Made by a program: the position numbers and the translations under genes. The notes below the pieces were generated by a model. The model was not told the origin of the DNA and searched no databases. It saw nothing but the letters and a program-made list of their open reading frames with translations. Of a stretch of DNA of 64,000 bases, positions 5,989 to 24,292 are shown in pieces. Origin of the DNA: Rhodanobacter sp. FDAARGOS 1247 (GTDB taxonomy: Bacteria > Pseudomonadota > Gammaproteobacteria > Xanthomonadales > Rhodanobacteraceae). The stretch lies in contig NZ_CP069535.1 of the NCBI RefSeq assembly GCF_016889805.1, forward strand, positions 2,604,001 through 2,668,000, written 5' to 3'. Numbering within the stretch: the first letter of the stretch is position 1; the number at the start of each line of letters is the position of its first letter.

Positions 5989-6012
5989 TTGGTTGAGTGA
6001 CCAAATATGGAG
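5989..6012. promoter_or_regulatory. candidate TetR operator, copy 2
   Basis: This is the inverted partner of 5920-5943 (20 of 24 positions identical), containing GACCAAATATGG. It overlaps the ribosome-binding site of the downstream gene, which is a strong position for repression. Confidence 0.6.
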
Positions 6013-6018
6013 AGCAGC

Positions 6019-7524
6019 ATGGATGTGTGGACCGACCTGCTGGATGCGATGGAGGCGCCTTTTCCTGCGGCAGTGGAGTTCCCGCTTGGCCCCGGGGAGC
6101 CATGCGTGCTGGTCCATGGGTTTCTTTCGGCGCATGAATGCGACGCGCTTATACAGGCAACGGAACAGCGTGGGTTCACGGGTGCGGGACCGGACTACCC
6201 ACCCTCCTATCGTGACAATGACCGACTGGTGGCTGATGACCCAGGCCTGGCTGCCCAGCTGTTCGAACGCCTGCTCGGGGGTGCGGCCCGCTCTGCAGAA
6301 ATGGCGGGCATCATGAGCGAGGCCGGCTGGACCATCACCGGCGTCAATGAACGCCTGCGGTTCTGCCGCTATCGTCCGGGCACACAGTTCCGTGCGCACC
6401 AGGACGGCGTTCACCATCGTTCGTGCAGCCAGTCGCGCCTGACCTTCATGGTCTATCTCAACGACGACACATTCACGGGCGGCGACACCTTGTTCTTTGA
6501 AGGCCGTTCCTCAGCCATGGAGGGTCGGGACCCCGTCCCGCTGCGCCCACGCAAGGGCAGCCTGATCCTGTTTTCCCACTCGTTGTGGCACGCAGGCGCT
6601 CGCGTGCATACAGGCGTGAAGTACGTCATGCGTAGCGACCTGATGTACCGGCCGGAGCATCCCGCCGAGCCTGATGGAGCATTCCAGCCGGGCCATCGCG
6701 GCTATGTCTGGGCACTTGCCGCGTTACGCGACTTCGGGATAGCCAGCGGTGGTCGCGACTCCACCATCAGGCTGTGGGATGACGAGGGCGCCCCGCTGGG
6801 AACGCTGGACGGTCACACACAATCGGTGCTCGGTCTCGTCGAGATGGCACCTGGCCAACTCGTTTCCCATTCGCGCGATCGCACGATCAGGCAGTGGAGT
6901 CTGGCAACGGGCGCCTCCACGATAGTCGGCACCTCCGATTCGGCCGTGTTGTCGGCTGCCCGGCTGGATCGCGAGCGACTCGTCACTGGAGACGCCAGCG
7001 GGAAACTTGCAGTCTGGAACCTGACCACTGGCACAGCGGAAACCTGGCGTGCTCACGACTCCTGGGTCTGGGCCATAGCGCCCTTGCGGGACGGCGATTT
7101 CGCGACCGCTTCGGAAGACGGCCTGATCAGGCTCTGGCGTTCTGTGGACCGCTGCGCGATGGCGGCAGCGAATCCGGGGTATCCCCTCAGAGCAATGGCA
7201 AGCCTCGTAACGCGCGACGTCGCGATGCTGGCAGCGGGCGACGTCAAGGGCACCGTGCACCTGCTGGGTGCGGGGCAGGAGCTGGAGCGCCTGGGGAGCT
7301 TTACCGCGCACGACGGACCAGTCCGGCGAGTGCGCTTCGAAAGCGAACACATGTTGCTCACGTGCGGTGAAGACAGGTTCGTTCGACGATGGGATCTTCG
7401 TACACGGCAATGCACCGTCGTCGCCGCCCACACCAACTTCGCCACTGACGTGCTCTGCACCGGGCCGGGCCGCTGGATCAGTTGTGGTTACGACGGCCGT
7501 ATAGAGGCGCATGGCCCTCCATGA
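6019..7524 (+). CDS. 2OG-Fe(II) oxygenase fused to a WD40 beta-propeller
   Basis: A 501-residue two-domain protein. Residues about 25-212 form a prolyl-4-hydroxylase-like double-stranded beta-helix: His127 and Asp129 (AHQD) and His191 (LWHAG) are the iron ligands, and Lys201 in VKYVMRSD is placed to bind 2-oxoglutarate. Residues about 226-501 hold seven WD40-like blades, recognised by repeated GH/AH...W endings such as STIRLWD, TIRQWS, KLAVWN, LIRLWR and FVRRWD. No signal peptide is seen. The start at 6019 follows GGAG six bases away; an ATG at 6007 lies in the operator-like site and has no such support. The propeller may recruit a protein substrate for hydroxylation. The divergent TetR gene is the likely regulator. 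Confidence 0.85.
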   Translation: MDVWTDLLDAMEAPFPAAVEFPLGPGEPCVLVHGFLSAHECDALIQATEQRGFTGAGPDYPPSYRDNDRLVADDPGLAAQLFERLLGGAARSAEMAGIMSEAGWTITGVNERLRFCRYRPGTQFRAHQDGVHHRSCSQSRLTFMVYLNDDTFTGGDTLFFEGRSSAMEGRDPVPLRPRKGSLILFSHSLWHAGARVHTGVKYVMRSDLMYRPEHPAEPDGAFQPGHRGYVWALAALRDFGIASGGRDSTIRLWDDEGAPLGTLDGHTQSVLGLVEMAPGQLVSHSRDRTIRQWSLATGASTIVGTSDSAVLSAARLDRERLVTGDASGKLAVWNLTTGTAETWRAHDSWVWAIAPLRDGDFATASEDGLIRLWRSVDRCAMAAANPGYPLRAMASLVTRDVAMLAAGDVKGTVHLLGAGQELERLGSFTAHDGPVRRVRFESEHMLLTCGEDRFVRRWDLRTRQCTVVAAHTNFATDVLCTGPGRWISCGYDGRIEAHGPP

Positions 7525-7604: not shown

Positions 7605-8420
7605 TCACTGCGTTGACGATGTCTCCAGCGCCCGATTGAGTCGTTCCACCAGCGCAGCCTGGATGTGCCCGTTGGACACGCAGACATTGCCGCCATGCAC
7701 GTCCACCGGGCCACCGGTGACCGAGCTGGCCACGCCGCCGGCTTCGCGCACCAGGATGATGCCCGGCGCCATGTCCCAGGCACACAGCGAGCGTTCCCAG
7801 TAGGCGTCCCAGCGTCCGGCCGCGACGTAGGCCATGTCGACCGAGCACGCGCCGGTGCGACGGATGCCGGCGACTTCGCCGGACAGCAGCGCCATCTCGC
7901 GGGCGAACACCGGGTGATCGGGCTTGCCGGCGAACGGGATGCCGCAGCCGAGCACGCTGTCGACCAGGCGGTTGCGGATGGAGACGCGGATCGGCTCGCT
8001 GTTGAGCCAGGCACCCTCGCCTTTCGCCGCCACGAACATTTCCCGCAACACCGGCAACCAGGTCACGCCGGCCACCACCTCGCCCTCGCGCGCGAGCGCG
8101 ATGTTGACGCCCCACAGCGGCGTGCCGAACAGGAAGTTGGTGGTGCCGTCCAGCGGGTCGACGATCCAGCTCTGCGCATCGTCGCTGCCGCCGGTGGTGC
8201 CGCCCTCTTCGCCGATGAAGCCGAACGATGGCTGCGCCTTGCCGAGGATTTCGCGGGTGCTGCGCTCGGCTTCCTCGTCGGCGATCGAGACCAGGTCGGC
8301 CGGGCCGGACTTGGTGCGCGCCACCAGTTCCCCGAGCTGGCCGAAGCGCTGCAGCAGGCCGTCGCCGGCTACCTGGGCGGCCTTGATCATCGCCTTGAGT
8401 TCGGGGGAAGCGCGCAACAT
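7605..8420 (-). CDS. inositol-monophosphatase-family phosphatase
   Basis: A 271-residue cytoplasmic enzyme of the IMPase (SuhB) family: Mg-dependent hydrolysis of a sugar or inositol monophosphate. Metal ligands are seen in FIGEEGG, in WIVDPLDGTTNF and in the C-terminal WD.APG motif (AWDMAPGIILVREAGG). No signal peptide. It begins four bases after the stop of the organophosphate antiporter gene and is surely co-transcribed with it. In this neighbourhood its likely role is to release myo-inositol from an imported inositol phosphate; that is inference, since family members also act on FBP, PAP or histidinol phosphate. If the main product of phytate breakdown is Ins(2)P, the enzyme would need activity on the axial phosphate, on which mammalian IMPase is poor. 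Confidence 0.85.
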   Translation of the reverse strand: MLRASPELKAMIKAAQVAGDGLLQRFGQLGELVARTKSGPADLVSIADEEAERSTREILGKAQPSFGFIGEEGGTTGGSDDAQSWIVDPLDGTTNFLFGTPLWGVNIALAREGEVVAGVTWLPVLREMFVAAKGEGAWLNSEPIRVSIRNRLVDSVLGCGIPFAGKPDHPVFAREMALLSGEVAGIRRTGACSVDMAYVAAGRWDAYWERSLCAWDMAPGIILVREAGGVASSVTGGPVDVHGGNVCVSNGHIQAALVERLNRALETSSTQ

Positions 8421-8424
8421 GGTT

Positions 8425-9771
8425 TCAGTCCCTGCGTCGTGTGCGCCACAGGCTCAGCGCCAGCAGCATGGAGAGCACCGACGAGCCGATCCAGAACGCG
8501 ATCGCCGGGCCGAAATTGTAGTGGCGCACGCCATCGACCAAGGTCATGCCGTGCTGGATCAGCGTGCCGGACACCTGCTCCTGCACGCCGGCGCCGATGT
8601 AGCTGCAGATGCCGATCACGCCCATCGCCGCGCCGGCCACGCGCTTGGGCGCGATGTCCACCGCGAACAAGCCGCCCAGCGAGGTGACCAGGCCGGTCAG
8701 GCCCATGCCGAACAGCACCATCGCGATGATCAGCGACCACAGGTGATTGGGGCCATAGAAGAACAGCAGCAGGCCAGCCAGTTCCAGCAGCGCGAAGATC
8801 AGGTTCACCGGCGGGCGGTGCGCGTCGAACAGCTTGTCGGAAATGAAGCCGAACGCGATGGCACCAGCCATGCCGGCCAGGGTGCTGATCATCAGCAGGG
8901 TGCCGGCCATGGTCAGCGAGTAACCGTGGATCTCCTGCAGGTACAGCACGCCCCAGGAATTGATCGCGTAGCGCGTCACGTAGGTGGTGGCCGAGGCCAG
9001 GCACAGCACCCAGATCGCGGGCATCTTCAGGATCGACAGCTGCAGCTTCAGCACCGAGGCGATCTTCGGTTTCGACGCCTCGCCGAAGTTGTCGTTCTTC
9101 CAGTCGTTGACCGCGGGCAGGCCCAGGGTGGGTGGGCGATCCTGCAGCAGCAGATAGGCGCCGATCGCGGTGGCCACGCCGATCATGCCCGGCCCCCAGA
9201 AACCGAAGCGCCAGCCGAAGGTGGCCACGGTGGCGCCGACCACGAGAAAGGTCAGGCCTTCGCCGATCGAGTGCGCGGTGCTCCAGATGCCGTAGGTGCG
9301 CCCGCGCTCGCGGTTGGAAAACCACGCCGTCATCGCCACCACGCCGCCCGGCGCGCCGAAGCTCTGGAACCAGCCGTTGAGCCCCCACAGGATCACCGCC
9401 AGCCACACCGTGGTGACGAAGCCCATCGCCAGGTTGCACACCGCCGTGGTGAGGAAGGCGAAGGCCAGGAAGCGCTTCATGTTCGCGTGATCGGCGAGGA
9501 AGCCGTTGGTGAGCTTGCCGATCGCGTAGGTATAAAAAAGTGCCGAACCGATCATGCCCAGTTCGGCGGGAGTAAAGATGCCGGCGTCGATGATCGGTTT
9601 CTTGACCACCCCGAGCGCCAGGCGGCAGGTGTAGATCAGGCCGTAGCCCAGCGTTATCGCAAGCATCACGCGCAGGCGATGCTTGCGATATTGCCGGTCG
9701 ATGACGTCCCTGTCGGTGATCTCGGGCTGGTCAGCTCCGGTTGCGAAAAACGCCAGCCATCCACGCGCCAT
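8425..9771 (-). CDS. organophosphate:phosphate antiporter (OPA family, GlpT/UhpT type)
   Basis: A 448-residue MFS inner-membrane carrier with about 12 hydrophobic segments. It is OPA rather than a sugar:proton symporter: Arg50 (IYTCRLALGVVKKP) and Arg267 (YVTRYAINSWGVLYLQE) match the phosphate-binding arginines of GlpT, Arg45 and Arg269, and His167 in ERGRTYGIWSTAHSIGEG matches GlpT His165. A phosphorylated substrate exchanged for phosphate is therefore likely. Neighbours suggest an inositol phosphate: the next gene encodes an IMPase-family enzyme four bases on, and phytase and iol genes lie upstream. No other inositol carrier is visible in the window. The start follows a strong GAGGGGGGAG site. 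A GGAA-N6-TTCC palindrome lies 76 bases upstream. Confidence 0.85.
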   Translation of the reverse strand: MARGWLAFFATGADQPEITDRDVIDRQYRKHRLRVMLAITLGYGLIYTCRLALGVVKKPIIDAGIFTPAELGMIGSALFYTYAIGKLTNGFLADHANMKRFLAFAFLTTAVCNLAMGFVTTVWLAVILWGLNGWFQSFGAPGGVVAMTAWFSNRERGRTYGIWSTAHSIGEGLTFLVVGATVATFGWRFGFWGPGMIGVATAIGAYLLLQDRPPTLGLPAVNDWKNDNFGEASKPKIASVLKLQLSILKMPAIWVLCLASATTYVTRYAINSWGVLYLQEIHGYSLTMAGTLLMISTLAGMAGAIAFGFISDKLFDAHRPPVNLIFALLELAGLLLFFYGPNHLWSLIIAMVLFGMGLTGLVTSLGGLFAVDIAPKRVAGAAMGVIGICSYIGAGVQEQVSGTLIQHGMTLVDGVRHYNFGPAIAFWIGSSVLSMLLALSLWRTRRRD

Positions 9772-9846
9772 CGGACTCCCCCCTCAGCGGCCGGCGCAGC
9801 AGGCACCGGCCTCGTTGCAATCAGACTATTTCATATTTGAACAAAT

Positions 9847-9862
9847 TGGAAGAATTATTCCA
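9847..9862. promoter_or_regulatory. candidate RpiR/IolR operator upstream of the antiporter
   Basis: TGGAA and TTCCA form a perfect inverted repeat around six bases, giving GGAA-N6-TTCC, the consensus I recall for the RpiR-type IolR repressor of Sinorhizobium meliloti. It lies in the 152-base gap before the antiporter gene, inside an unusually A+T-rich stretch likely to be a promoter. Confidence 0.55.
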
Positions 9863-9881
9863 TATACACCGAAACGCCTTG

Positions 9882-9904
9882 CTTCCCCCGCTGCGCGGAG
9901 GAAG
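9882..9904. repeat. REP-like hairpin
   Basis: CTTCCCCCGC and GCGGAGGAAG pair with one mismatch around a 3-base loop. It belongs to the same hairpin type as those at 11504-11528 and around 30444-30632. It lies just after the mmsA stop and may act as a transcription attenuator between mmsA and the antiporter gene. Confidence 0.5.
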
Positions 9905-9923
9905 GATCGTTCGTGTCACGCCG

Positions 9924-11420
9924 TCACAAGGTCGGGATCACGAAGCTCTGTTCGATCGCTTCGCCGCCCCTGGGCCAGCGCTGGGTCACCGTCTTGGTGC
10001 GGGTGTAGAAGCGCACGCCGTCCATGCCGTACTGGTTGAGGTCGGCGAAGCCCGAGCGCTTCCAGCCGCCGAAGCTGTGGTACGCCACCGGCACCGGGAT
10101 CGGCACGTTGATGCCGACCATGCCCACCTCGACGCGGTCGGCGAACTCGCGCGCCGCGTCGCCGCTGCGGGTGAAGATGCTGACGCCGTTGCCGTAGGGA
10201 TGCTGCGACGGCAGCGCCAGCGCTTCCTCGAAGCTGTGCGCACGCACGATCTGCAGCACCGGGCCGAAGATTTCGTCCTGGTAGGTCTTCATCGTGGGCT
10301 TCACGTGATCGAACAGCGTGGGCGCGAGGAAGAAGCCGCCCTCGTGGCCGGGCACCTTGAGGCCGCGGCCGTCGACCACCAGTTCCGCGCCCTCGTCCAC
10401 GCCGAGCTGGATATAGCCCTCGATCCGCGCCTTGTGCGCCGCCGACACCACCGGGCCGTAGTGCGCATCGGGATTGCCGGAGACGCCCACCTGCAGCGCG
10501 GCGATCGCCGGCAGCAGTTTCGCGCGCAGCGCCTCGGCGGTCGCCTCGCCCACCGGCACCACCACCGGCAGCGCCATGCAGCGTTCGCCGGCCGAACCGT
10601 AGGCGGCGCCCATCAGGTCGGCGACGACCTGGTCGAGGTCCGCATCCGGCAGCACGATGCCGTGGTTCTTGGCGCCGCCCATGCACTGCACGCGCTTGCC
10701 GTGGGCCGCGCCGGCCGCGTACACCGATTGCGCCACGTCGGACGAGCCGACGAAGCTGACCGCCTTGATCGTCGGATGCGCCACGATCGCGTCGACGATC
10801 TCCTTGTCGCCGTGCACCACGTTGAGGATGCCAGGCGGCAGGCCGGCCTCGATCATCAGCTCGGCCAGCCGCACCGGCACCGACGGGTCGCGTTCGGACG
10901 GCTTGAGGATGAATGCGTTGCCGGTGGCGATCGCCGGGCCGAACATCCACATCGGGATCATCGCGGGGAAGTTGAACGGCGTGACGCCGGCCACCACGCC
11001 TAGCGGCTGCATCGCCGAATAGACGTCTATCCGCGGGCCGGCGCCCTGGGTGTACTCGCCCTTCAGCAGGTGCGGGATGCCACAGGCGAACTCGATCACC
11101 TCCAGTCCGCGCAGCACGTCGCCGTGCGCATCGGACACCACCTTGCCGTGCTCGCTGGCCAGCAGCTCGGCCAGCTCCTGCTTGTGCGCGTTGAGCAGGC
11201 GCACGAACTCGAACATCACCCGCGCGCGGCGCTGCGGATTCACCGCGGCCCACGCCGGCTGCGCCTCGGCGGCGTTGCGCACCGCGCGATCAAGCTCCGC
11301 GGCGTTGGCCAGCGACACCTTCGCCTGCACCTGGCCGCTGTTCGGATCGAAGACGTCGCTGTGGCGACCGGAGGTGCCGACGACGGTCTGGCCGCCGATG
11401 AAATGTTCGATGTTGCGCAT
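9924..11420 (-). CDS. mmsA: CoA-acylating methylmalonate-semialdehyde dehydrogenase
   Basis: A 498-residue aldehyde dehydrogenase that converts malonate semialdehyde (last step of inositol catabolism, also called IolA) or methylmalonate semialdehyde to acetyl-CoA or propionyl-CoA with NAD and CoA. VAGVTPFNFPAMIPMWM is the substrate/cofactor region typical of this subfamily, and GSAGERCMAL carries the catalytic cysteine. Length is typical. It is downstream of iolB on the same strand, separated by 158 bases with a REP-like hairpin, so it may be partly uncoupled from the iolCDEB unit. Valine breakdown uses the same enzyme; the location favours the inositol role. Confidence 0.93.
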   Translation of the reverse strand: MRNIEHFIGGQTVVGTSGRHSDVFDPNSGQVQAKVSLANAAELDRAVRNAAEAQPAWAAVNPQRRARVMFEFVRLLNAHKQELAELLASEHGKVVSDAHGDVLRGLEVIEFACGIPHLLKGEYTQGAGPRIDVYSAMQPLGVVAGVTPFNFPAMIPMWMFGPAIATGNAFILKPSERDPSVPVRLAELMIEAGLPPGILNVVHGDKEIVDAIVAHPTIKAVSFVGSSDVAQSVYAAGAAHGKRVQCMGGAKNHGIVLPDADLDQVVADLMGAAYGSAGERCMALPVVVPVGEATAEALRAKLLPAIAALQVGVSGNPDAHYGPVVSAAHKARIEGYIQLGVDEGAELVVDGRGLKVPGHEGGFFLAPTLFDHVKPTMKTYQDEIFGPVLQIVRAHSFEEALALPSQHPYGNGVSIFTRSGDAAREFADRVEVGMVGINVPIPVPVAYHSFGGWKRSGFADLNQYGMDGVRFYTRTKTVTQRWPRGGEAIEQSFVIPTL

Positions 11421-11528: not shown

Positions 11529-11578
11529 GAGACCCGCCCCTCCGGCCCGCCTTTGGTGCCCGCGTGTGGAAACCGGGG

Positions 11579-12391
11579 TTAGCCGGGCGGACGCCGCGCG
11601 ATCCAGTCGTGGGCCGGGTCGTTGCGGAAAATCCATTGGCGATGCGGGCCCGCCATCACGTTGAGGTAGTACAGGTCGTAGCCGTGCGCCGTGCCGACCG
11701 GGTGGTAGCCGCGCGGCACCATCACCACGTCGCCGTCTTCCACGCAGACGGTTTCATCGAGCGAGCGGTCGTCGGTGTAGACGCGCTGGAAGGCGAAGCC
11801 CTGCGGCGGGTTGAGCCGGTGGTAGTAGGTTTCCTCCAGCGCGGTTTCCGCGCCCGCCTCGGCGGTGTCGTGCTTGTGCGGCGGGTAGCTGGACCAGTGC
11901 CCGCCGGGCGTGATCACTTCCACCACCAGCAGGCTGTCGGCCGGCTCGGTCTGCGGCAGGATGTTGCGCACGTGGCGGGTGTTGGTGCCCGCGCCGCGCA
12001 CTTCGCGGCTCATCGCGGACTCGGCGATCAGCCGCGGTTCGCCCTGCGCCGTGCCGGGCGCGGTACAGACGGCCAATTCGATCGGGCCGCTGGCGACGAC
12101 TTCATAGGCGACGCCCGCGGGCACGTAGACGGCACCGGGCGCGCGATCCTCGAACGGGTTGCTGCGACCACCGACGTGCGCGAAGTGCAGTCCGCCCGCA
12201 TCAACGTCGGCCATGCCGGCAACGATCACCAGGCAGGCCTCGCGGCCGGCCTCGCCGCCGGCGAACCGCTCACCGGCCGCCAGTTTCACCAGGCGGAAGC
12301 CGACATGTTTCCAGCCGGCGCTGGCCGGAGTCACCTCCAACACGGTACCCGTGGCGTCGGGCGCATGGGGGCGGACGCGCAGGCCGGCCAT
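11579..12391 (-). CDS. iolB: 5-deoxy-glucuronate isomerase
   Basis: A 270-residue double-cupin enzyme converting 5-deoxy-D-glucuronate to 2-deoxy-5-keto-D-gluconate in the inositol pathway. The C-terminal cupin shows the family pattern SSYPPHKHD with metal-ligand histidines, followed by EETYYHRLNPPQGFAFQRVYTDD and VMVPRGYHPVGTAHGYDLYYLNVMAG. The ATG overlaps the iolE stop by one base (TGATG), so translation is coupled; the longer open frame upstream runs out of phase through iolE. Fourth gene of the iolC-D-E-B unit. Confidence 0.95.
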   Translation of the reverse strand: MAGLRVRPHAPDATGTVLEVTPASAGWKHVGFRLVKLAAGERFAGGEAGREACLVIVAGMADVDAGGLHFAHVGGRSNPFEDRAPGAVYVPAGVAYEVVASGPIELAVCTAPGTAQGEPRLIAESAMSREVRGAGTNTRHVRNILPQTEPADSLLVVEVITPGGHWSSYPPHKHDTAEAGAETALEETYYHRLNPPQGFAFQRVYTDDRSLDETVCVEDGDVVMVPRGYHPVGTAHGYDLYYLNVMAGPHRQWIFRNDPAHDWIARRPPG

Positions 12392-13277
12392 CACTGCAAC
12401 CCCGCGGCGGCGGCGCGCTCCCGCAGCGTGCCGAGGCCGAGTTGGGCGTAGGTGCGCGGATCGGCCAGGGCCGGGTCCTGCTCGGCCTCGATCACGATCC
12501 AGCCGCTGTAACGGATCTTCGCCAGTGCAGCCATCAGCGCCGCGTAATCCAGGCCGCCGTCGCCGGGCACGGTGAACATGCCGGCCAGCACGCCGTCGAG
12601 GAAACTCGACCCGGCTGCGCGCAGTTCGTCGAACACCTCGCGGCGCACGTCCTTGCAATGCACGTGGGCGATGCGCGCAGGGTGCTCGGCGATCAGCTGC
12701 AACGCGTCGATGCCGCCCAGCGCGGCGTGGCCGGTGTCCAGGGTCAGCCCCACCGATGCGCCGGTGTGGCGCAGGAAGGCCTGCAGGTCCGACGCGCGCT
12801 CGACCACGGTGCCCAGGTGATGGTGGTAGGCGAAGCGGATGCCCTGGGCCTGGATGTAATCGGCCACCTCGGTCAGGCGCTGGCCGAACACGGCCCACTC
12901 GTCCGGGCCGAGTTGCGGCGTGTCCTGCATGGCCTGGTCGCGCTGGCCATGGATCGCATTGCTGGTTTCGGCGAACACGAACACCGTGCTGCCCATCGCC
13001 TTGAGCAGTTCCAGATGCGGCTGCAGCGCCACGATCTCGTCGTGGGCGGACTGCGTCAGCAGCGAGCCGCTGTACCAGCCGCCGATCAGGTCGAGCTGGT
13101 AGCGCGCCAGCAGCGGCTTCAGCGCGGCCGCCTGGCGCGGGAACTTGCCGCCCAGCTCGACGCCTTCGAAGCCCAGCTCCTGGATGTCGCGCAGGATGCT
13201 TTCCAGCGGCGTGTCGCCGCCCAGCTCGGGCATGTCGTCGTTGGCCCAGGCGATCGGGCTGACGCCGAAACGGATGC

Positions 13278-13281
<4 letters not shown>
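12391..13281 (-). CDS. iolE: myo-inosose-2 dehydratase
   Basis: A 296-residue TIM-barrel (xylose-isomerase-like) enzyme that dehydrates 2-keto-myo-inositol to a diketone. Recognisable stretches are FGVSPIAWANDD at the N-terminus, YHHHLGTVVE, LTLDTGHAALGG, VHCKDVR and VIEAEQDP, carrying the metal-binding acidic and histidine residues. It overlaps iolD by four bases (ATGA at 13278-13281) and iolB by one base. Length matches the family. Confidence 0.95.
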
Positions 13282-15110
<1,829 letters not shown>

Positions 15111-15111
15111 C

Positions 15112-17049
15112 TCACACCGCCTCGCTGCGGCAGGCCAGAGCCGCTGCGCGGGCCTCGCGCCACGCTTCGACCAGCACGGCGAAGCGCGCGCAGAGATCGG
15201 CGATCGCCGCCTCGTCATCGAAGCTGCCGGACAACCAGCGTGCCGCGGCATCCGCGAAAATCGTGCGCCCCACCGCGAAGCCCTTGACGATGGGACTGGC
15301 CGCGGCGCTGCGGAACGAATCGGCGAGCACTTCGCTGGGCGCCTGCAGACCCAGCAGCAGGACGCCGTGGCAAAGCGGATCGTTGCGTCGAATGGCGCGC
15401 TCGATATGGCCCCAGGTGGCGCCGTCGGCGGCCGGTTCGAGTTTCCACCAGTCCGGTTTCATGCCCCGATCATAGAGACACTGGATCGCCCGCGCCGCGG
15501 TGTACTGGTCGACCGGTCCATGGCGCGAGGCGATCACTTCCAGCAGCAGCTCGTGGCGGGTCTTGCGGCAGGCGTCCTGCAGGCGCAGCAGCTGGCGTTC
15601 CTGCTGTTCGCACAACTCGCGCGGGTCGTCCGGGTGATAGAACACCAGGCACTTCACCACGTGGTTGTACGGCCAGGTGGCCAGCTCGGTGGCCACGTCG
15701 GCGGAGCTTTCGAACACCAGCGGGCGCGAACCGGGCAGCTCGATCGGACGGCCGATCCAGTACGGACGATCGGCGGCGGCTTCCAGCGCGCGCATGCCGT
15801 AGCGGCCATCCAGCAACACGCCGAAACGGTCGTCGCCACGCGCCAGCCGGTCGACCGCCTGCAACACCAGCGCCTTGAACGCGGGGATGCGGGCCGGGTC
15901 CGCCCCGGTCTCGCGGCAGATGTCCTCGAACTGGCTGCGATGATCGACCGCCAGCACGGTGAGGTCCTCGTGCACGCGGGCCCGCGTGGTCGCCCAGTGC
16001 AGCTGTTCCAGCGCGGCATCGTCGCGCAGCCGGAACGGTCGTTCGCCGCCACCGAGGAATGCCTGCAGTTCGTCCCAGGTCGGCATCGCGGGCGCGCAGC
16101 CGTGGCGCGAGACCACGATGGCGCCGCAGGCGTTGGCGTATTCGCAACACGTCGACAACGGCTCGTCGCGCAGCCAGCCGCGCAGGAAGCCGGCCATGAA
16201 TGCATCGCCGGCGCCCAGCACGTTGAATACCTCGACCTGGAAACCGCGGCCGACCACGCCGTCGTCGAGGCGGTCGGGGATCGCGGCGGGGAACGCCGAG
16301 CAACCCAGCGCGCCGCGCTTGCACACCAGCAACGCGTCGCTGCGCGCGCGGATCGCCCGCAGCGCGGCGATGGTGTCGGTGCTGCCGCCGAGGATGTGGA
16401 TCTCCTCCTCGGTGCCCACGATCAGGTCGCACAGCGGCAGCACCTGCTGCAGCCGCGCGGTGACTTCGGCGTCGGCGACGAAGCGGTTCTCGCCCATGTC
16501 CCTGCCGGTCAGCCCCCACAGCACGGGCCGGTAATCGATGTCGAACACCACCCTGGCGCCGGCGGCGCGGGCCAGTTCGCAGGCGTGCACGGAGGCGTCG
16601 AACACGTTCGGCCGCGACAGGTGCGTGCCGTTGATCAGCACGGAGCGCGCGGACTGCACCAGCTCCACGTCGATGTCCGATACGCCCAGCGCCATGTCGG
16701 CGCAGTTCTCGCGATAGAAGATCAGCGGGAACGTGTCCGGGTCGCGGATGCCCAGGAAGACCAGCGCGGTGAGCCGCTCGCGGTCGGTGACCAAGCCATC
16801 GACGCAGACGCCTTCGCGCCGCAGCTGCTCGTGGATGAAGCGGCCGAAATGATCGGCGCCCACGCGGGTGACCAGGGCGCTGCGCAAGCCGAGTCGCGAG
16901 GCGCCGACGGCGGTGTTGGTCGGACTGCCGCCGATGTACTTCGCGAAAGAGGTCATGTCCTCCAGGCGACCACCGGTCTGCTCGCCGTACAAGTCGATGC
17001 AGGATCGTCCGATGGTTACAAGGTCAAGCTGACGCTTTGCCCCTTCCAT
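15112..17049 (-). CDS. iolC: bifunctional 5-dehydro-2-deoxygluconokinase / DUF2090 aldolase-like fusion
   Basis: A 645-residue fusion. Residues about 8-320 are a PfkB-family kinase: the GGSPTNTAVGASRLG substrate region and GAGDAF (catalytic Asp282) are intact; it phosphorylates 2-deoxy-5-keto-gluconate. Residues about 330-640 are a DUF2090 domain, annotated in other genomes as the 5-dehydro-2-deoxyphosphogluconate aldolase (IolJ activity), which splits the product into dihydroxyacetone phosphate and malonate semialdehyde. No separate iolJ is seen in the window. First gene of the iol unit; start 17049 (ATG) is preferred to an in-frame GTG at 17064. The 87-base gap upstream holds A+T-rich ATTCTATT-type sequence. 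Confidence 0.93.
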   Translation of the reverse strand: MEGAKRQLDLVTIGRSCIDLYGEQTGGRLEDMTSFAKYIGGSPTNTAVGASRLGLRSALVTRVGADHFGRFIHEQLRREGVCVDGLVTDRERLTALVFLGIRDPDTFPLIFYRENCADMALGVSDIDVELVQSARSVLINGTHLSRPNVFDASVHACELARAAGARVVFDIDYRPVLWGLTGRDMGENRFVADAEVTARLQQVLPLCDLIVGTEEEIHILGGSTDTIAALRAIRARSDALLVCKRGALGCSAFPAAIPDRLDDGVVGRGFQVEVFNVLGAGDAFMAGFLRGWLRDEPLSTCCEYANACGAIVVSRHGCAPAMPTWDELQAFLGGGERPFRLRDDAALEQLHWATTRARVHEDLTVLAVDHRSQFEDICRETGADPARIPAFKALVLQAVDRLARGDDRFGVLLDGRYGMRALEAAADRPYWIGRPIELPGSRPLVFESSADVATELATWPYNHVVKCLVFYHPDDPRELCEQQERQLLRLQDACRKTRHELLLEVIASRHGPVDQYTAARAIQCLYDRGMKPDWWKLEPAADGATWGHIERAIRRNDPLCHGVLLLGLQAPSEVLADSFRSAAASPIVKGFAVGRTIFADAAARWLSGSFDDEAAIADLCARFAVLVEAWREARAAALACRSEAV

Positions 17050-17100
17050 ATGCACTTCTCTCACGGGTCTCCGGCGCCCACCGCTCCGGATGCACGTAAT

Positions 17101-18027: not shown

Positions 18028-18103
18028 GGGGCTTTCCTTCGTGTTTCGCCGGGCTGCACGCGCAACACCGGCCTTTGTTGAAATATGGCGCAACTTTCCA
18101 GAA

Positions 18104-18140
18104 ATTCTATTACACTCAAAAACAGAATATCAGTTCTATT
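18104..18140. promoter_or_regulatory. candidate RpiR operator array between rpiR gene and iolG1
   Basis: At 18121-18140, AACAGAA and TTCTATT form a 7-bp inverted repeat (one mismatch) around six bases, so AGAA-N6-TTCT. Just left, ATTCTATT at 18104-18111 adds a further half-site that can pair with ACAGAAT. The region is strongly A+T-rich and lies upstream of the TTG start of iolG1. Confidence 0.55.
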
Positions 18141-18173
18141 TTTTTCGGCAACTCAGCTCGGGGGAGTCTACTC

Positions 18174-19157
18174 TTGGACAGAATCGACGTTGTCTTGATC
18201 GGCGCGGGCCGCATGGGCCAGGTGCACGGGCCCAATGCCGCCCGTCACCCGGGCCTGCGCCTGAAGTACGTGGTGGATCCCCGCGTCGAGGCCGCGGGCT
18301 TCGCCGCCCTGCACGGCGCCAGCATGGTCAGCCTGGAACAGGCGCTGGCCGATCCCTCGATCGGCGGCGTGCTGATCTGCAGCTCGACCGACCAGCACCT
18401 GGGCCACGCGCTGGCGGCGGTCGAGGCGGGCAAGGCGGTGTTCTGCGAGAAGCCGATCGATCTGGATCTGGAAAAGGTGCGGGCGGCGCAGTCGCGCTTC
18501 GCCGGCGCCCGCTTCCTGCTCGGCTTCAACCGGCGCTTCGATCCGCAGTTTGCGCGACTGAAGCAGCAGCTGGACGCGGGCGCGATCGGCCGGTTGGAAA
18601 CCCTGCACCTGGTCAACCACGACCCGGCCTCGCCGCCGGCGGGCTTCATTCCCACCAGCGGCGGCCTGTTCAAGGACTTCACCATCCACGACCTGGACAT
18701 GGCGCGCTGGCTGATGGGCGAGGAGCCGGTCGAAGTGTTCGCCAGCGCCAGTTGCCTGGTCGACCCGGAGATCGGCCGCCAGGGCGACGTCGACACCGCC
18801 CGCTGCGTGCTGAAGACCGCCAGCGGCCGGCTGTGCGTGATCTCCAACACGCGCCGCAGCGGTTACGGTTACGACCAGCGCATCGAGGCGTTCGGCTCGA
18901 CCGGCATGATCCGCGCCGACAACGTGGCGCAGGACACCGTGCACACGCTGACCGAGGCCGGCAGCTGCGGTGCGCCGATCATGCCCGCCTTCGCCGAGCG
19001 CTACCGCGAGGCCTATCGCGCCCAGATCGACCACTTCGCCGACGTGGTGCACGGCCGTGCCGTTTCGCGCACCGATTATGCCGACGGCGTGGCCGCGCTG
19101 ATCCTGGCCGAGGCCTGCGCATGGTCCGCGCAGCACGAACAAGTCTTCACCCTCTGA
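18174..19157 (+). CDS. iolG: inositol 2-dehydrogenase (Gfo/Idh/MocA family), first copy
   Basis: A 327-residue NAD-dependent dehydrogenase that oxidises inositol to 2-keto-inositol. GAGRMG at residues 10-15 binds NAD; Lys93 of CEKP, Asp168 and His172 (DFTIH) match the catalytic Lys, Asp and His of Bacillus IDH. I place the start at a TTG (18174) because GGGGGAG lies seven bases upstream and because the only in-frame ATG (18075) would put the operator-like palindrome at 18121-18140 inside the gene. It is followed after 13 bases by a second, clearly related copy. Confidence 0.9.
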   Translation: MDRIDVVLIGAGRMGQVHGPNAARHPGLRLKYVVDPRVEAAGFAALHGASMVSLEQALADPSIGGVLICSSTDQHLGHALAAVEAGKAVFCEKPIDLDLEKVRAAQSRFAGARFLLGFNRRFDPQFARLKQQLDAGAIGRLETLHLVNHDPASPPAGFIPTSGGLFKDFTIHDLDMARWLMGEEPVEVFASASCLVDPEIGRQGDVDTARCVLKTASGRLCVISNTRRSGYGYDQRIEAFGSTGMIRADNVAQDTVHTLTEAGSCGAPIMPAFAERYREAYRAQIDHFADVVHGRAVSRTDYADGVAALILAEACAWSAQHEQVFTL

Positions 19158-19170: not shown

Positions 19171-20148
19171 ATGCACAAAGTCGTCATAGTCGGAGCCGGC
19201 CGCATCGGTCGCATCCATGCCCGCAACGCCGCCCTGCATCCACGCATCGAACTGGCCGGCGTGATCGACGCGATCGACGCGTCGGCGCAGGCGCTTGCCG
19301 CGGAGTGGAATGCCCCGGTCACCACCCTCGACGCCGCGCTGGCCGATGCATCGGTCCGCGGCGTGATCATCGCCAGCTCCACCGACACCCACCTGGACTA
19401 CTGCGTGCGCGCTGCCGCCGCCGGCAAGGCGATCTTCTGCGAGAAACCCATCGACCAGGACCTGGCCCGCGCCCGCGGCGCGGCGGCGAAGCTGTCCGGC
19501 GCCAACCTGCTGCTGGCCTTCAACCGGCGTTTCGATCCGAACTTCCGGGCATTGAAGGCGCGCCTGGACAGCGGCCGGATCGGCACGATCGAAAGCCTGC
19601 AGATCACCTCGAACGATCCCGCGCCGCCGCCGCCGTCCTACGTCGCCGTGTCCGGCGGCCTGTTCAAGGACATGGCGATCCACGACTTCGACATGGCCCG
19701 CTGGCTGCTCGGCGAGGAACCGGTCCAGGTCTATGCCGCCGGCAGTTGCCTGGTCGACCCGGTGATCGGCGAACTGGGCGACGTGGACACCGCGCGCACG
19801 CTGCTGAAAACCGCCTCGGGCAGGCTCTGCGTGATCTCCAACAGCCGCCGCAGCGGTTTCGGCTACGACCAGCGCATCGAGGCCTTCGCCTCCGGCGGCA
19901 TGGTGCGGGCGGACAACGTGCTGGAGAGCACCACCCAGGTCTGCACCGAGGCCGGCGTCGCCAGCGACCGCCTGCAGAATTTCTTTCTCGACCGCTACGC
20001 CGAGGCCTATCGCAGCGAGATGGAGCACTTCGCCGACATGCTGGACGGCACGCGTGCCGCGGTCGGCTATGCCGACGGCGTGGCGGCGCTGGCGCTGGCC
20101 GAGGCGGCCAGTGAATCGGTACGCTCGGGCGCGCCGGTCAGGCTCTGA
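19171..20148 (+). CDS. iolG: inositol 2-dehydrogenase (Gfo/Idh/MocA family), second copy
   Basis: A 325-residue paralogue of the preceding gene. GAGRIG at residues 8-13, Lys92 (CEKP), Asp167 and His171 (DMAIH) keep the catalytic set. The two proteins share long stretches such as SGGLFKD, HD.DMARWL and RRSG.GYDQRIEAF, so they arose by tandem duplication but have diverged. They may use different inositol isomers (myo, scyllo, D-chiro) or form pathway-specific pairs; sequence alone does not decide. Followed by a strong hairpin at 20156-20186. Confidence 0.9.
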   Translation: MHKVVIVGAGRIGRIHARNAALHPRIELAGVIDAIDASAQALAAEWNAPVTTLDAALADASVRGVIIASSTDTHLDYCVRAAAAGKAIFCEKPIDQDLARARGAAAKLSGANLLLAFNRRFDPNFRALKARLDSGRIGTIESLQITSNDPAPPPPSYVAVSGGLFKDMAIHDFDMARWLLGEEPVQVYAAGSCLVDPVIGELGDVDTARTLLKTASGRLCVISNSRRSGFGYDQRIEAFASGGMVRADNVLESTTQVCTEAGVASDRLQNFFLDRYAEAYRSEMEHFADMLDGTRAAVGYADGVAALALAEAASESVRSGAPVRL

Positions 20149-20205: not shown

Positions 20206-21525
20206 TCAGGGCAGCACGGGGCGGCGCAGCACCGGGACCAGCTTGTCCTTCACGATCTTCTCGAAATCCGCCAGCGGGCAGCGCTCCGCGCACCCCGGAA
20301 TCGGGATGTACTGGTACGAGGCCGGATTGCCGGCGTCGAGCTTCTGCAGCTCGCGCACCTGGTCCATCGTCTGCGAGCGGTAGAACGCACGGACGAACTG
20401 CGCGCCCGACGGATCGGCCAGCACCTCGAAACCGATCGCGCCGCCCGGCGGCGGATCGTCGCTGGGATAGCTGGGCACCTGCCAGTGCAGGTCGAGCATG
20501 CCGCCCAGGTCGGCAATGTTGGTGTCGTGCCCCACCAGCACCGTCAGCTTCGCGCCGTGCTCCACCGCCGCCAGCATGCGTGCGGCCAATGGCGTGGCGG
20601 CGCGGGCCGCCACGTAGGGCGCGCGGCCTTCGTAGCGGAATTTCAGCGCGTGGAATTTCAGCAGGGTGGAAATCTGCTCACGGGTGAGGTGCCCCCAGGC
20701 GACGTCCTTCATCGGCTTCCCTTCGAGGTATTCGAGCAGGAAGGTCTGGCTGGCGGTGGAGGCGACGCCGAACGGATTGCCCACGCCGGGGCGATCACCG
20801 TCCTTGTGCTCCAGCCCGGCCGGCATCTTCGAGATGTCGCAAGCTGCGGCGGGCGCGCAGCCCATCGCCTGGTTGAGCAGGGCGAACAACGGCGCCTGCG
20901 CCTGCACTTCCGCCGCCATGCCACCGGCGGGCATCAGCGCCTGCACGGCCTTCAGCGCGGCATCGGCATCGATCGCCACCGCCCGCGTATCCAGCGGATG
21001 GAATTCCACGTCGTCGCGCTTGTCGGCCGGGAACGCGACGTTGATGCCGCAATCGGGAGCCATGCCTTCGACCAGCGCCCGTGCGGTGGCCTGGGTGCGC
21101 GACTTCGCGCTGGCGGCGACCTCGACGTCTCCGTTCGCCGGACAGCCGGTGGCCGGCAGCAGGCCGCGGGCGGCCCAGTTGATGCGATCCCACTGGCCGA
21201 GCAGGCGCACCGCGTCGCGGCCGTGCCCGGTCAGCTCGCCGAAGTCGACGTCCCATTGCGGCCACGGCGACGGGTTGGTGCCGGCCGGTGTGACCTGCTG
21301 CTTGGTCGGCGGCCTGACGCCGTGGCGCATCAGCATCACCACCCGTTGCAGCTTCAGCTCGACTGGCTGCGCGACGGCCGATGTCGCGGCCGACGCCGGC
21401 GTGGACGACTGCGCGTCCGATGCGCGCGTGCACCCGCCCATGCTCATCGAGAACACCGCCAGCGGAATGCCGGCGAGCAGCCTCAGCGCAAGCGCGGATG
21501 AATTTCTGGAGTGCTTCAGTTGCAT
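20206..21525 (-). CDS. histidine acid phosphatase (AppA-like phytase / glucose-1-phosphatase group)
   Basis: A 439-residue exported phosphomonoesterase. RHGVRPPT at residues 67-74 holds the nucleophilic His68 and phosphate-binding arginines; GHDTN (His333, Asp334) is the proton donor motif. The N-terminus is a signal peptide with a lipobox-like SMGGC, so Cys32 may be lipidated and the enzyme held in the envelope. Enzymes of this group remove several phosphates from phytate and can go down to inositol monophosphate. The ATG at 21525 has GAGGAG eight bases upstream; the ATG at 21531 is too close. It lies on the same strand as the TonB-dependent receptor but after that gene's terminator. Confidence 0.88.
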   Translation of the reverse strand: MQLKHSRNSSALALRLLAGIPLAVFSMSMGGCTRASDAQSSTPASAATSAVAQPVELKLQRVVMLMRHGVRPPTKQQVTPAGTNPSPWPQWDVDFGELTGHGRDAVRLLGQWDRINWAARGLLPATGCPANGDVEVAASAKSRTQATARALVEGMAPDCGINVAFPADKRDDVEFHPLDTRAVAIDADAALKAVQALMPAGGMAAEVQAQAPLFALLNQAMGCAPAAACDISKMPAGLEHKDGDRPGVGNPFGVASTASQTFLLEYLEGKPMKDVAWGHLTREQISTLLKFHALKFRYEGRAPYVAARAATPLAARMLAAVEHGAKLTVLVGHDTNIADLGGMLDLHWQVPSYPSDDPPPGGAIGFEVLADPSGAQFVRAFYRSQTMDQVRELQKLDAGNPASYQYIPIPGCAERCPLADFEKIVKDKLVPVLRRPVLP

Positions 21526-21565
21526 GTTCATTGCTCCTCGCAAACCGGACCTTGCCATGTTGCTC

Positions 21566-21598
21566 AAAAAAACGGCGATCCCGGGGAGAGGATCGCCG
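21566..21598 (-). terminator. intrinsic terminator of the TonB-dependent receptor gene
   Basis: On the minus strand a perfect 9-bp G+C-rich stem (CGGCGATCC / GGATCGCCG, 8-base loop) is followed by seven T residues. This is the clearest Rho-independent terminator in the window and separates the receptor from the acid phosphatase. Confidence 0.9.
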
Positions 21599-21628
21599 CC
21601 AGACACCGTGGGGACGGAATTCGAAGGC

Positions 21629-24091
21629 TCAGAACACGGCGCGCAGCGTGAGCGACCAGCGTGGCGACGAGCACTCGCGCTCGAGCTCCATGAAGTCGAC
21701 GTTGTACGCCCGGTTGTTGGCCATCATCTCGGTGGCGTCGTCACCGGCGAAATCCTGTTCCAGCTGTTCGCTGCACGAGTCGAGCAGGTTGTTGCCGGTC
21801 AGGCGCAGCACGAACGACTTGCCGAGGCGCTTTTCCAGGAACACCTCCAGATTGCCGCCGTAGCTGGTGCTCTGCATTTCGCCGGGCGAATTGTGCTGGT
21901 AGGACGGCCCCTGCTTCTGGTAGCTGGCGCCGAAGCTGGCCTTCCACGCGGGAATGTCCTGGGTCACGCCGACGTTGTAGACGAACGACGGCTGGTCGTC
22001 GACGGTCACGTCGCGGCCGGTGATCGGGTTGAGCCGCTTGGAGAACAGCCGGGTGTAGTTGCCGAAGATGCCGGTGTTGGGCATGCCCAGCGCGCTCAGC
22101 GGCATCGACATGTCGAACTCCACGCCGCGGACCTTGGCGCTGCCGATGTTCTGGAACGTGTACAGGCCACCGGGGAAATCGTCCGGGTCCTGGCCGGCAT
22201 CGGTGACCGGTCGCGTGGTGCGGACCATGCCGATCAGGTCGGAGATGTTGCGCTGGAACAGGTTGACGCCAACGATGCCGCTCTTGCCGATGCTGTGCTC
22301 GTAACCCAGGTCGAAGCCCAGCGAGCGCTCCATCTTCAGGTCCGGGTTGCCGATCGTCACGTCCCACTCGCCCGGCGATTCCAGGGTCACCGACGGCACC
22401 AGCTGCTCGACGCTGGGACGACGCACGGTGCGCGCCACGCTGAAACGCAGCTGGTCGGCATCGGTCAGTTTCCACTGCAGGTGCGACGACGGGTTGAGCA
22501 TGAACTCGTGGCTGTCGGCGTGACCGGTGGTCTGCGCGTCCTGCACGTAGTTGACGTAGTTGGTGGTGACGTAGTCCTGCTTCGTCCGGGTCTTTTCGCC
22601 GCGCACGCCGGTAGTGAGGGTGAACGTCGGGCTGAATTCCCAGTCCACCGTGGCGTAGGTGTCGAAGCGGTCTTCCTTGTAATCGAACCGCCCTTCGGTG
22701 CCCTTCTGGGTCGACTTGCTCAGGCCCGAGAGCTCCGATTCGGTATAGGTGCGGTCCTTGTTCTTGACCTGCACGCCCACCTTCAGCGTCGCCGCGTCGA
22801 GACCCATCGAGCTGGCAAGATCCGGCATGCGCCGCGTGATGGAGGCATCGGCCATCCAGTTCTTGTCATCGGCCGCCGTGCCCTTGTTCTTGTCCCGGGT
22901 ATCCGGCGTGTCCTTGAAGTAGTGCTTGACCTCGCTGCCCTTGGTGCTGTTGCGGCCCAGGTAGGCCTCGAAATCGGTGCGGTCGTTGAACGAGGTGTTG
23001 AACAGCGCGGACAGGCCGTAGCTGTCCTCGTCGATCGGCGTGTTCTCGAACTTCAGTTCCGGATTGGCCAGGTCGAGGCCGCCGACGCTGCCATCGCCCT
23101 CGTAGGTCCGGGTGTTCTCGTATTCGGTGCGGCGGGTCTTGATCGCGAAGGCATCCAGCCGCAGGCTGGAGACATCGGACATGCGCCAGGTCACGTCGCC
23201 GTTGAAGGACAAGTCCTTCGACTCGCGCTCGTCGCCCTGCTCTTCGCGCCCGGTCGCCCGCGACTTGCTGATGTCGTCCCAGCTCTGCAGGCCGCGACCG
23301 TTGCTGCCGGCGGCTACCGCATCGCTGAAGCCGACCGTGTCGCCGTCGACCACTTCCTGGATCGCATGCTTCTCGTTGAAGCGCTTCTGCGCATCCACGG
23401 TCAGCGAATAGAACACCGTGTTCGCGTCGTTGCGGCCGGACCAGGACACGGCCGCATTCGGGCGGATCCGGCCGGTCTTCTTGTCCCAGGTTTCGCCGAC
23501 GCGGACGATGACGCCGGGCGGCAAGGTCGCGCCGTCCTTGAGGATGATGTTGATGGTGCCGCCCACGCCCTGGCTGTCGAAGTCGGCCGATGGCGAACGG
23601 ACGATCTCGATGCGATCGATGATCTCGGCGGGGATGCGGTCGACGGCGACCGAACGGTCATTGCCGATGCCGGGCACGGCGCGGCCGTTGACCAGGATCT
23701 GCGTATAGCCGTTGCCCAGGCCGCGCATTTCCGGCGCCACCGATTCACCGACGTCGCCGACGAAGGCCACGCCCGGTACGCGACGCAGCTGGTCGCCCAC
23801 CGAGACCGGCTCGAACTTGGCGAAGAACTGCTGGTCGTAGACCAGCACCGGCGCCGGCACATCGATGTGGCTGCGATAACCGATGTTGCCGGTGACCACC
23901 ATCGCCTGCAGGTCGATGGCCTCCTGCTTCTTCTTGTCATCCGCCTGCGCGGCGGCCTGATCGCCACCGCCAGCCTGGACGCCCGTAGCCGGCTGGGCGG
24001 CCTCCTGCGCAAACACCAGGCTCGGCGTAGCCAAGGCGCAACCGCTCAACAGTAGTGCCGCCTGCAACGCATTTCGACGAAAAGTGTGCAT
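21629..24091 (-). CDS. TonB-dependent outer-membrane receptor, phytase-linked
   Basis: An 820-residue receptor. A signal peptide (about 1-28, ending LVFAQ) is followed by a Q/A/D-rich stretch and a TonB-box-like segment before VVTGN. The plug domain (about 70-190) contains LRRVPGVAFVGDVGES, NGYTQILVNGRAVPG and DRIEIVRSPSADFDSQGVGGTINI. The remaining 600 residues form the 22-strand barrel and end in an aromatic residue (LRAVF). The divergent neighbour is a beta-propeller phytase; pairing of such phytases with TonB-dependent receptors is known in Proteobacteria. Phytate, a lower inositol phosphate, or their metal complexes are the likely ligands. No FecR-like signalling extension is seen. Confidence 0.9.
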   Translation of the reverse strand: MHTFRRNALQAALLLSGCALATPSLVFAQEAAQPATGVQAGGGDQAAAQADDKKKQEAIDLQAMVVTGNIGYRSHIDVPAPVLVYDQQFFAKFEPVSVGDQLRRVPGVAFVGDVGESVAPEMRGLGNGYTQILVNGRAVPGIGNDRSVAVDRIPAEIIDRIEIVRSPSADFDSQGVGGTINIILKDGATLPPGVIVRVGETWDKKTGRIRPNAAVSWSGRNDANTVFYSLTVDAQKRFNEKHAIQEVVDGDTVGFSDAVAAGSNGRGLQSWDDISKSRATGREEQGDERESKDLSFNGDVTWRMSDVSSLRLDAFAIKTRRTEYENTRTYEGDGSVGGLDLANPELKFENTPIDEDSYGLSALFNTSFNDRTDFEAYLGRNSTKGSEVKHYFKDTPDTRDKNKGTAADDKNWMADASITRRMPDLASSMGLDAATLKVGVQVKNKDRTYTESELSGLSKSTQKGTEGRFDYKEDRFDTYATVDWEFSPTFTLTTGVRGEKTRTKQDYVTTNYVNYVQDAQTTGHADSHEFMLNPSSHLQWKLTDADQLRFSVARTVRRPSVEQLVPSVTLESPGEWDVTIGNPDLKMERSLGFDLGYEHSIGKSGIVGVNLFQRNISDLIGMVRTTRPVTDAGQDPDDFPGGLYTFQNIGSAKVRGVEFDMSMPLSALGMPNTGIFGNYTRLFSKRLNPITGRDVTVDDQPSFVYNVGVTQDIPAWKASFGASYQKQGPSYQHNSPGEMQSTSYGGNLEVFLEKRLGKSFVLRLTGNNLLDSCSEQLEQDFAGDDATEMMANNRAYNVDFMELERECSSPRWSLTLRAVF

Positions 24092-24165: not shown

Positions 24166-24204
24166 CGAACAAACATTCTAAAATGCAACACGTTTAGAAT
24201 GTTT
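24166..24204. promoter_or_regulatory. operator region between TonB receptor and phytase genes
   Basis: AAACATTCTAAA (24171-24182) and TTTAGAATGTTT (24193-24204) form a perfect 12-bp inverted repeat with a 10-base centre, midway between divergent genes. Overlapping its left arm, GAA (24167) and TTC (24176) are spaced by six bases, the same GAA-N6-TTC form as before iolG1 and the antiporter. Confidence 0.65.
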
Positions 24205-24292
24205 CGTGCAAAAAAGTTTTTGATGCCGTATGGTGGCCGCACGACAGCCAAGACACCGCGCGGGCGCAGCGGCCATCCGAGGAGAAAGGGGA

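Follow-up and report, generated by a model that had tools for sequence, protein, structure and literature searches.

An OPA-type major facilitator carrier and the IMPase-family phosphatase encoded beside it in Rhodanobacter sp. FDAARGOS 1247 are likely to be the inner-membrane and cytoplasmic steps of a locus that channels phytate into carbon metabolism. The locus lies in a stretch of 64,000 nucleotides (the window; GCF_016889805.1, NZ_CP069535.1, positions 2,604,001-2,668,000 of the forward strand) of a 3.92 Mb genome, and two phytases, a TonB-dependent receptor, a full set of iol genes for inositol catabolism, the carrier and the IMPase-family gene all fall inside 7605-26353. Much of the organic phosphorus in soil and feed is stored as phytate, and the usual view of bacterial phytases is that they scavenge phosphorus. 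In the proposed pathway, phytate or lower inositol phosphates would cross or dock at the outer membrane via the TonB receptor, and two phytases, predicted to be exported from their signal-like N-termini, would strip phosphates. The leftover inositol monophosphate would then cross the inner membrane through the carrier, for which we infer substrate, direction, isomer and coupling ion; the IMPase would take off the last phosphate inside the cell, and IolG, IolE, IolD, IolB, IolC and IolA would burn the released inositol. An RpiR-type IolR would control the carrier and the iol genes, and probably the phytases too. The direct observations are of gene content, conservation, mutual exclusion, operator enrichment and residue pattern. 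A sequence-only reading of the carrier and phosphatase had proposed import of an inositol monophosphate in exchange for phosphate, mentioning neither the phytases nor the TonB receptor; it is partly supported, being right in its core and narrower than the locus, with its antiport part the weaker one.

The iol operon runs on the minus strand in the order iolC-DUF2090, iolD, iolE, iolB, iolA, carrier and IMPase, with the RpiR regulator upstream and two iolG genes divergent from it. The TonB receptor gene immediately precedes that of the histidine acid phytase on the same strand, and divergent from the receptor is the beta-propeller phytase, the sole PF02333 gene found in the genome. Papers are cited here by accession for particular passages. 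The features are as follows:

7605..8420, minus strand: IMPase-family phosphatase (PF00459, 196 bits), last gene of the iol operon
8425..9771, minus strand: OPA-type major facilitator carrier, proposed inositol-monophosphate importer
9848..9861, unstranded: IolR-type operator, exact GGAA-N6-TTCC palindrome, 76 bp 5' of the carrier start
9924..11420, minus strand: iolA/mmsA, methylmalonate/malonate semialdehyde dehydrogenase (TIGR01722, 653 bits, above cut-off)
11579..12394, minus strand: iolB, 5-deoxy-glucuronate isomerase (TIGR04378, 335 bits, above cut-off)
12391..13281, minus strand: iolE, inosose dehydratase (TIGR04379, 381 bits, above cut-off)
13278..15251, minus strand: iolD, trihydroxycyclohexanedione hydrolase (TIGR04377, 903 bits, above cut-off); mechanical open-reading-frame start, overlapping iolC
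15112..17064, minus strand: iolC-DUF2090 fusion, kinase and proposed aldolase (NF047869, 759 bits, above cut-off; fusion described in a passage of PMC9007349)
17137..18093, minus strand: RpiR-family regulator, proposed IolR (HTH_6 and SIS domains)
18075..19157, plus strand: iolG1, inositol 2-dehydrogenase (TIGR04380, 369 bits, above cut-off); mechanical TTG start
19171..20148, plus strand: iolG2, second Gfo/Idh/MocA dehydrogenase (PF01408, PF22725, PF02894)
20206..21606, minus strand: AppA-family histidine acid phytase (best PDB match phytase 8xm1, E 1.5e-60); mechanical GTG start
21629..24091, minus strand: TonB-dependent receptor (TIGR01782, 208 bits, below the cut-off of 310)
24166..24204, unstranded: divergent phytase promoter, with a degenerate IolR box at 24166-24179 (two mismatches) and an inverted repeat
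24230..26353, plus strand: dual-domain beta-propeller phytase (PF02333, 449 bits in two stretches, above cut-off)

The histidine acid phytase contains the catalytic motifs RHGVRPP (residue 94) and HDT (residue 360) and, judged by eye, a lipoprotein-like N-terminus from residue 28; it scores 238 bits against NF007552, below the curated cut-off of 585. The coordinates bear out that the IMPase-family gene follows the carrier by 4 bp, and no hydrophobic N-terminus is seen in its product, in agreement with the signal-less enzyme that had been described. This protein carries the metal-site motifs GEEGG, DPLDGTTNF and WD and has SuhB/IMPase relatives in the PDB. It is 36% identical to the best other copy among the four PF00459 genes of the genome, and falls below the curated cut-offs for SuhB-type IMPase (170 against 332 bits) and HisN (168 against 275 bits). 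The metal-site residues are invariant across 11 IMPase partners of the carrier, four divergent ones included, and the window protein is proposed to act as an inositol-monophosphate phosphatase. Elsewhere in the window, the gene at 6007-7524, which lies 3' of the iol operon and converges on it, encodes a fusion of a 2OG-Fe(II) oxygenase domain with WD40 repeats, and an open frame of 3529 aa at 47685-58274 has only a weak DUF1494 match.

The association of carrier and inositol catabolism extends across the order. A carrier match (E <= 1e-20) was found in 16 of 299 genomes: that of the window itself, 10 with 54-80% identity and five with 31%. iolE scores above its curated cut-off in 29 of the 299 (in 54 others it scores below cut-off only; these are taken as other proteins of the same fold and left uncounted), and all 11 close carriers (above 50% identity) occur in iolE genomes. 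The order iolE-iolB-iolA-carrier-IMPase is kept in seven of the 11, window included, one contig beginning inside iolD. In the remaining four, the carrier and IMPase-family genes lie in or beside an iol cluster of other layout, and the IMPase-family gene is a different one, 30-36% identical to that of the window. Where neighbours were scanned, in part, a histidine acid phytase (65-68%) occurs in the carrier clusters of genomes G001 and G286 and a divergent form of it in that of G260, and a beta-propeller phytase in those of G001, G181 and G097. Inositol-type ABC permease and ATPase genes are present in 17 of the 18 iolE regions that lack the carrier (about 20 kb each, one of 12 kb); at E 1e-10, none of the 18 has a carrier, IMPase, PfkB kinase or phytase match, and none a TonB receptor, for which there are weak matches in two.

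A second sample was drawn from named genomes, in which two peptide patterns retrieved 256 stretches encoding carrier relatives. The best 80 of these were kept (59-96% identity), the closest being from Rhodanobacter (94-96%), with others from Gamma-, Alpha- and Betaproteobacteria, Acidobacteriota, KSB1, Bacteroidota, Ignavibacteriota and Opitutaceae. Within flanks of up to 10 kb, frequently shorter, iolB, iolC, iolD or iolE is found in 53 loci, iolG in 54, a phytase in 35, and iolB-E together with a phytase in 22; at least one of iolB-E, iolG, phytase and IMPase lies near the carrier in 73 of the 80. No such iol, phytase or IMPase linkage is present at any of 15 control loci encoding OPA proteins outside the clade. 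Ten controls came from 185 genomes of the class searched with GlpT (12 places, two of which were clade members and left out) and five from the distant matches of the order scan; three of the 15 stretches are shorter than 14 kb. An IolA-like aldehyde dehydrogenase (23-35% identity) occurs at four control loci, and iolA and IolA-like dehydrogenases are left out of the linkage tally for clade and controls alike. One contig labelled Phenylobacterium (L099) encodes a carrier identical to that of a Rhodanobacter locus (L100), and is probably mis-binned.

The strongest single argument for the substrate is a swap of the enzyme partner behind the same carrier, since IMPase and the characterised kinase TM0415 have the inositol/inositol monophosphate pair in common. 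An IMPase is within reach in 47 of the 80 loci, directly downstream in 39, and a PfkB kinase follows the carrier, or its tandem copy, in 22; the two never occur together, and 11 loci have neither. The carrier-linked kinases match TM0415 of Thermotoga (E 1e-43 for the copy of locus L129, 3e-35 for that of L153), and L129:11342-12235 follows the carrier in a locus without an IMPase match; the window itself has no such homologue. TM0415 is a myo-inositol kinase that uses pyrophosphate (PPi) and not ATP as donor and yields inositol 1-phosphate (Ins(1)P), and its authors suggest another acceptor (PMC5931981). The RXGRGD signature is kept in 22 of 23 PfkB copies, the exception being a fragment of 137 aa. 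K171, R229 and R232 and the acceptor residues Q141 and R145 are likewise kept in 22 of 23, and F221 in 21. The acceptor-site residue N78 is Leu in 22 of 23, so the isomer handled may differ from Ins(1)P. Ten of the PfkB loci are from Steroidobacteraceae or unassigned proteobacteria, most with classic iol genes nearby; the other 12 are from Acidobacteriota, KSB1, Opitutaceae, Bacteroidetes, Ignavibacteria or unassigned, and 10 of these 12 have matches to Thermotoga-type IolM/IolN. The carrier-linked kinase may run in the phosphorolytic direction.

Several partner arrangements stand out among the relatives. In KSB1-type loci L164, L166 and L173, a tandem carrier pair is followed by a PfkB kinase, with a beta-propeller phytase nearby. 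A small lipoprotein-like open reading frame (167-169 aa) lies between the carrier and a divergent IMPase at L024:10662-11165 and L026:9033-9542; a Pfam search with that of L024 gave no match. Next after the IMPase, 16 of 17 loci from Luteimonas, Pseudoxanthomonas and Arenimonas (L020:7890-9353 and relatives) encode a PhoD-like phosphatase whose N-terminus, judged by eye, is twin-arginine-like; the matching position of the window has no gene. L022:18111-19469 combines jacalin-like lectin and Exo_endo_phos2 domains and adjoins a divergent histidine acid phytase. Alphaproteobacteria clade carriers at L147, L155, L160, L162, L165, L167 and L170 have no iol, phytase or IMPase match nearby, and may have another substrate or serve an unlinked pathway.

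The carrier has a major facilitator superfamily (MFS) fold and homology to GlpT and SLC37. With VIA-align applied to Foldseek's ranking, human SLC37A4 is the best match to its predicted structure (pLDDT 91). The 50 structural matches listed do not include E. coli GlpT (1pw4), which is no evidence of a different fold. The carrier's scores are below the curated NCBIfam cut-offs for GlpT (215/633 bits), UhpT (151/497), UhpC (262/564) and PgtP (149/750), and below that of subfamily TIGR00881 (248/408). Among 7999 scored candidates, 5309 match it at E <= 1e-60, a set that may include other OPA proteins. Residues were compared, in GlpT numbering, across 84 clade members, E. coli GlpT, UhpT and UhpC and five distant OPA proteins. 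The sequence-only reading had taken retention of the GlpT substrate residues R45, H165 and R269 to mean that the substrate should be an organophosphate. All three are present in 84 of 84 clade rows and the argument holds, for the conserved half of the site that it covers. Y38, Y42, Q134, W161, Y270 and Y393 are equally invariant, and K80 is kept in 81. By comparison, K46 is replaced by Leu and H371 by Phe in all 84, D274 by Ser, E299 by Thr and W138 by Ala in 82 each, and N162 by Ser in 81. K46, N162, N166 and E299 are kept in all eight outside sequences; W138, D274 and H371 vary in UhpT and UhpC as well. In our reading of the alignment, the phosphate end of the site appears conserved and the opposite end rebuilt with mostly smaller side chains, with gating probably changed.

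The helix 1 RK pair, called a hallmark of the OPA family (PMC13046256), is absent from the clade; it is R-L in 84 of 84 rows, and the carriers are therefore called OPA-like here, a divergent group beside the characterised members. In a quick tree with eight outside rows, some very long, the clade stands apart with SH-aLRT 100. Also lost is the interdomain K46-D274 pair, for which E. coli UhpT has Gln at the Asp position. An interdomain salt bridge is described for GlpT and G6PT (PMC4598623; PMC13046256); in GlpT it forms in one state and K46L lowers binding (PMC4598623), and human SLC37A1-3 also lack the salt-bridge Asp (PMC13046256). Human SLC37A4, the glucose-6-phosphate transporter, is 22% identical to the carrier and has both the RK pair and the Lys-Asp salt bridge (PMC13046256), whereas the clade has neither. 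E. coli GlpT/GlpQ resembles the window pair in fold family, in the phosphate-binding Arg/His set and in layout, with the enzyme for a related organophosphate 4 bp after the carrier. However, GlpT is only 29% identical to the carrier and retains the features lost from the clade, whose partner is an IMPase or kinase and not a diesterase, and which is set in iol/phytase loci.

Regulation by IolR is suggested by the distribution of its operator. GGAA-N6-TTCC is the operator of Caulobacter IolR, an RpiR-family protein whose gene adjoins the iol operon (PMC2597717). Two exact boxes are found in the window against 0.41 expected. Across the 80 loci there are 50 against 14 expected by composition: 11 upstream of the carrier, two upstream of a phytase divergent from it, 18 upstream of iolG, iolC or the regulator, five inside genes and 14 fitting no known gene start. 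Among the 76 loci with enough upstream sequence, 13 have an exact box in the 250 bp before the carrier (0.98% of random segments) and 30 a box with at most one mismatch (10% at random). Of 20 divergent phytase promoters, 16 contain a box that departs from the motif at no more than one position, against 3.1 expected, and the matching phytase promoters of two relatives have CGAACAAA-type boxes with one mismatch. IolR control of phytases is likely in the group on this motif evidence and may hold in the window. Between the TonB receptor and beta-propeller phytase of the window, 24171-24204 forms a perfect 12-bp inverted repeat with a 10-bp spacer. A stricter operator pattern with flanking letters, allowing two mismatches, gave one match in the window, at the carrier and with zero mismatches, against 2.0 expected in shuffles. 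A scan of the own genome with an extended pattern at three mismatches gave 13+18 matches against 10+12 for the reversed control, no clear excess.

A number of points weigh against the proposed pathway. IMPase-family enzymes are promiscuous, and inositol 2-phosphate (Ins(2)P), the end product of AppA-type phytases, is a poor substrate for animal IMPases. Of the 22 loci with a PfkB kinase, 17 have a phytase within the flanks, but of the 47 with an IMPase only 16 do, many flanks being short, and seven of the 80 relatives have none of the linked genes near the carrier. At the fifth PPi-signature position, M266, only 14 of 22 kinase copies have Met, the others having Leu, Ile or Val. The locus is patchily distributed, since all 12 further genomes sampled from the genus lack the carrier. 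The 80-locus counts overstate independence, as the loci are interrelated and some genomes are shared with the order sample. Operator evidence in the window is modest: six of 100 shuffles reach two exact boxes, its own phytase promoter box has two mismatches, and the regions upstream of iolG/iolR and iolC have 2-mismatch boxes only. Finally, exchange for phosphate, as the sequence-only reading had it, is somewhat weakened because the clade lacks the RK motif and interdomain salt bridge (K46 and D274), while import of inositol monophosphate with internal release of inositol is strengthened by the phytases and TonB receptor, the replacement of the ABC importer, the partner swap and the operator.

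Other substrates for the carrier fit some of the same observations. It might bring in free inositol in place of the ABC importer, its phosphate-site residues being relics and the IMPase serving another role. The carrier and ABC importer are indeed mutually exclusive in the compared iol clusters of the order, and the loss of K46, D274 and E299 alters the charge pattern of the site. However, such a role is quite improbable given R45, H165 and R269 in every clade row and the near-constant K80, and it gives no reason for the neighbouring IMPase or kinase, nor for the linkage to phytases, found in none of the 18 other iol clusters. The own genome does encode one uncharacterised XylE-like sugar porter that could carry free inositol, a further point against the proposed pathway; its gene lies between those of a LacI-type regulator (by eye) and a RecQ-like helicase. 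No SSF protein was found in this genome, nor, in a search without positive control, a match to the inositol-cluster ABC permease, and the genome has a single OPA match at E <= 1e-20. Alternatively, the carrier might take lower inositol polyphosphates, to be finished inside by the IMPase-family enzyme. Inositol bis- or trisphosphates (InsP2 or InsP3) are the end products of beta-propeller phytases, the commonest type in the loci (29 of 80 by tblastn), and residues smaller than those of GlpT at positions 138, 162, 299 and 362 could widen the pocket. This is also improbable: the pair handled by TM0415 is inositol and its monophosphate (PMC5931981), many loci encode PhoD-like proteins or metallophosphoesterases, which suggests that trimming could end outside, and such high charge would be ill-suited to the carrier fold.

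PhoD-like proteins, present in 41 of the 80 loci and of a family that includes phosphodiesterases, would also fit transport of glycerophosphoinositol or a phosphatidylinositol head group, with the neighbouring phytases serving phosphorus supply alone. Diesters are not substrates of an IMPase, however, and a GlpQ-type diesterase is found in none of the 80 loci against three of 15 controls in the same search, making this role very improbable. The least credible of these alternatives is a UhpC-like sugar-phosphate sensor, as the source names of part of the 120 listed homologues have it. UhpC is the best curated profile, yet the score is less than half its cut-off; at the thresholds applied, a UhpB match is absent from the window and the 80 loci, a UhpA-like one (28-29%) occurs in two of 80, and in the operon the gene is flanked by those of a catabolic enzyme and a phosphatase. 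Transport of glycerol-3-phosphate or hexose phosphate ranks below all of these, since no control locus shows iol, phytase or IMPase linkage and GlpQ is found in controls only.

No bacterial carrier for import of inositol phosphate or phytate was found described among the papers listed in searches of the open-licence literature. A TonB receptor-phytase pairing, with proposed phytate uptake, was reportedly noted by Lim in 2007. The same pairing and proposal are given for Citromicrobium and Flavobacterium, though the passages concerned mention no iol genes, OPA carrier or IolR (PMC3400609; PMC8115612), and one interprets the pairing as phosphorus acquisition (PMC8115612). The Caulobacter iol module is like the window in its catabolic genes, RpiR-type regulator and operator, but imports free inositol by an ABC transporter; its authors speculated on an HlyB-family transporter as a possible inositol-phosphate carrier, and a word-start search of the text gave no phytate, phosphatase or monophosphate term (PMC2597717). 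A 2022 survey of iol genes names IolT and MFS transporters, and the text searched has no word starting 'phosphatase' (PMC9430895).

Beyond Rhodanobacter, a broader interpretation is put forward tentatively, and may well fail as a whole: a widespread phytate-as-carbon regulon in Pseudomonadota, Acidobacteriota, Verrucomicrobiota, Bacteroidota, Ignavibacteriota and KSB1, a new OPA-like subfamily of inositol-monophosphate carriers working without the RK/salt-bridge mechanism, and an interchangeable IMPase or reverse PPi-dependent inositol kinase. If the kinase is reversed, inositol phosphate and phosphate (Pi) would yield inositol and PPi, saving the phosphoester bond as pyrophosphate, which would account for the poor Michaelis constant (Km) of TM0415 for inositol. 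The clade would also be a natural experiment in an OPA-like fold working without the RK motif. If the proposed pathway is true, bacteria can use phytate as a carbon food, beyond its use as a phosphorus source, and a carrier for the last phosphorylated product would tie phytases to inositol carbon metabolism under an inositol regulator, assign a function to a broad protein group in which 'sugar phosphate sensor' is the present name of some members, and open to testing what PPi-dependent inositol kinases do in the cell.

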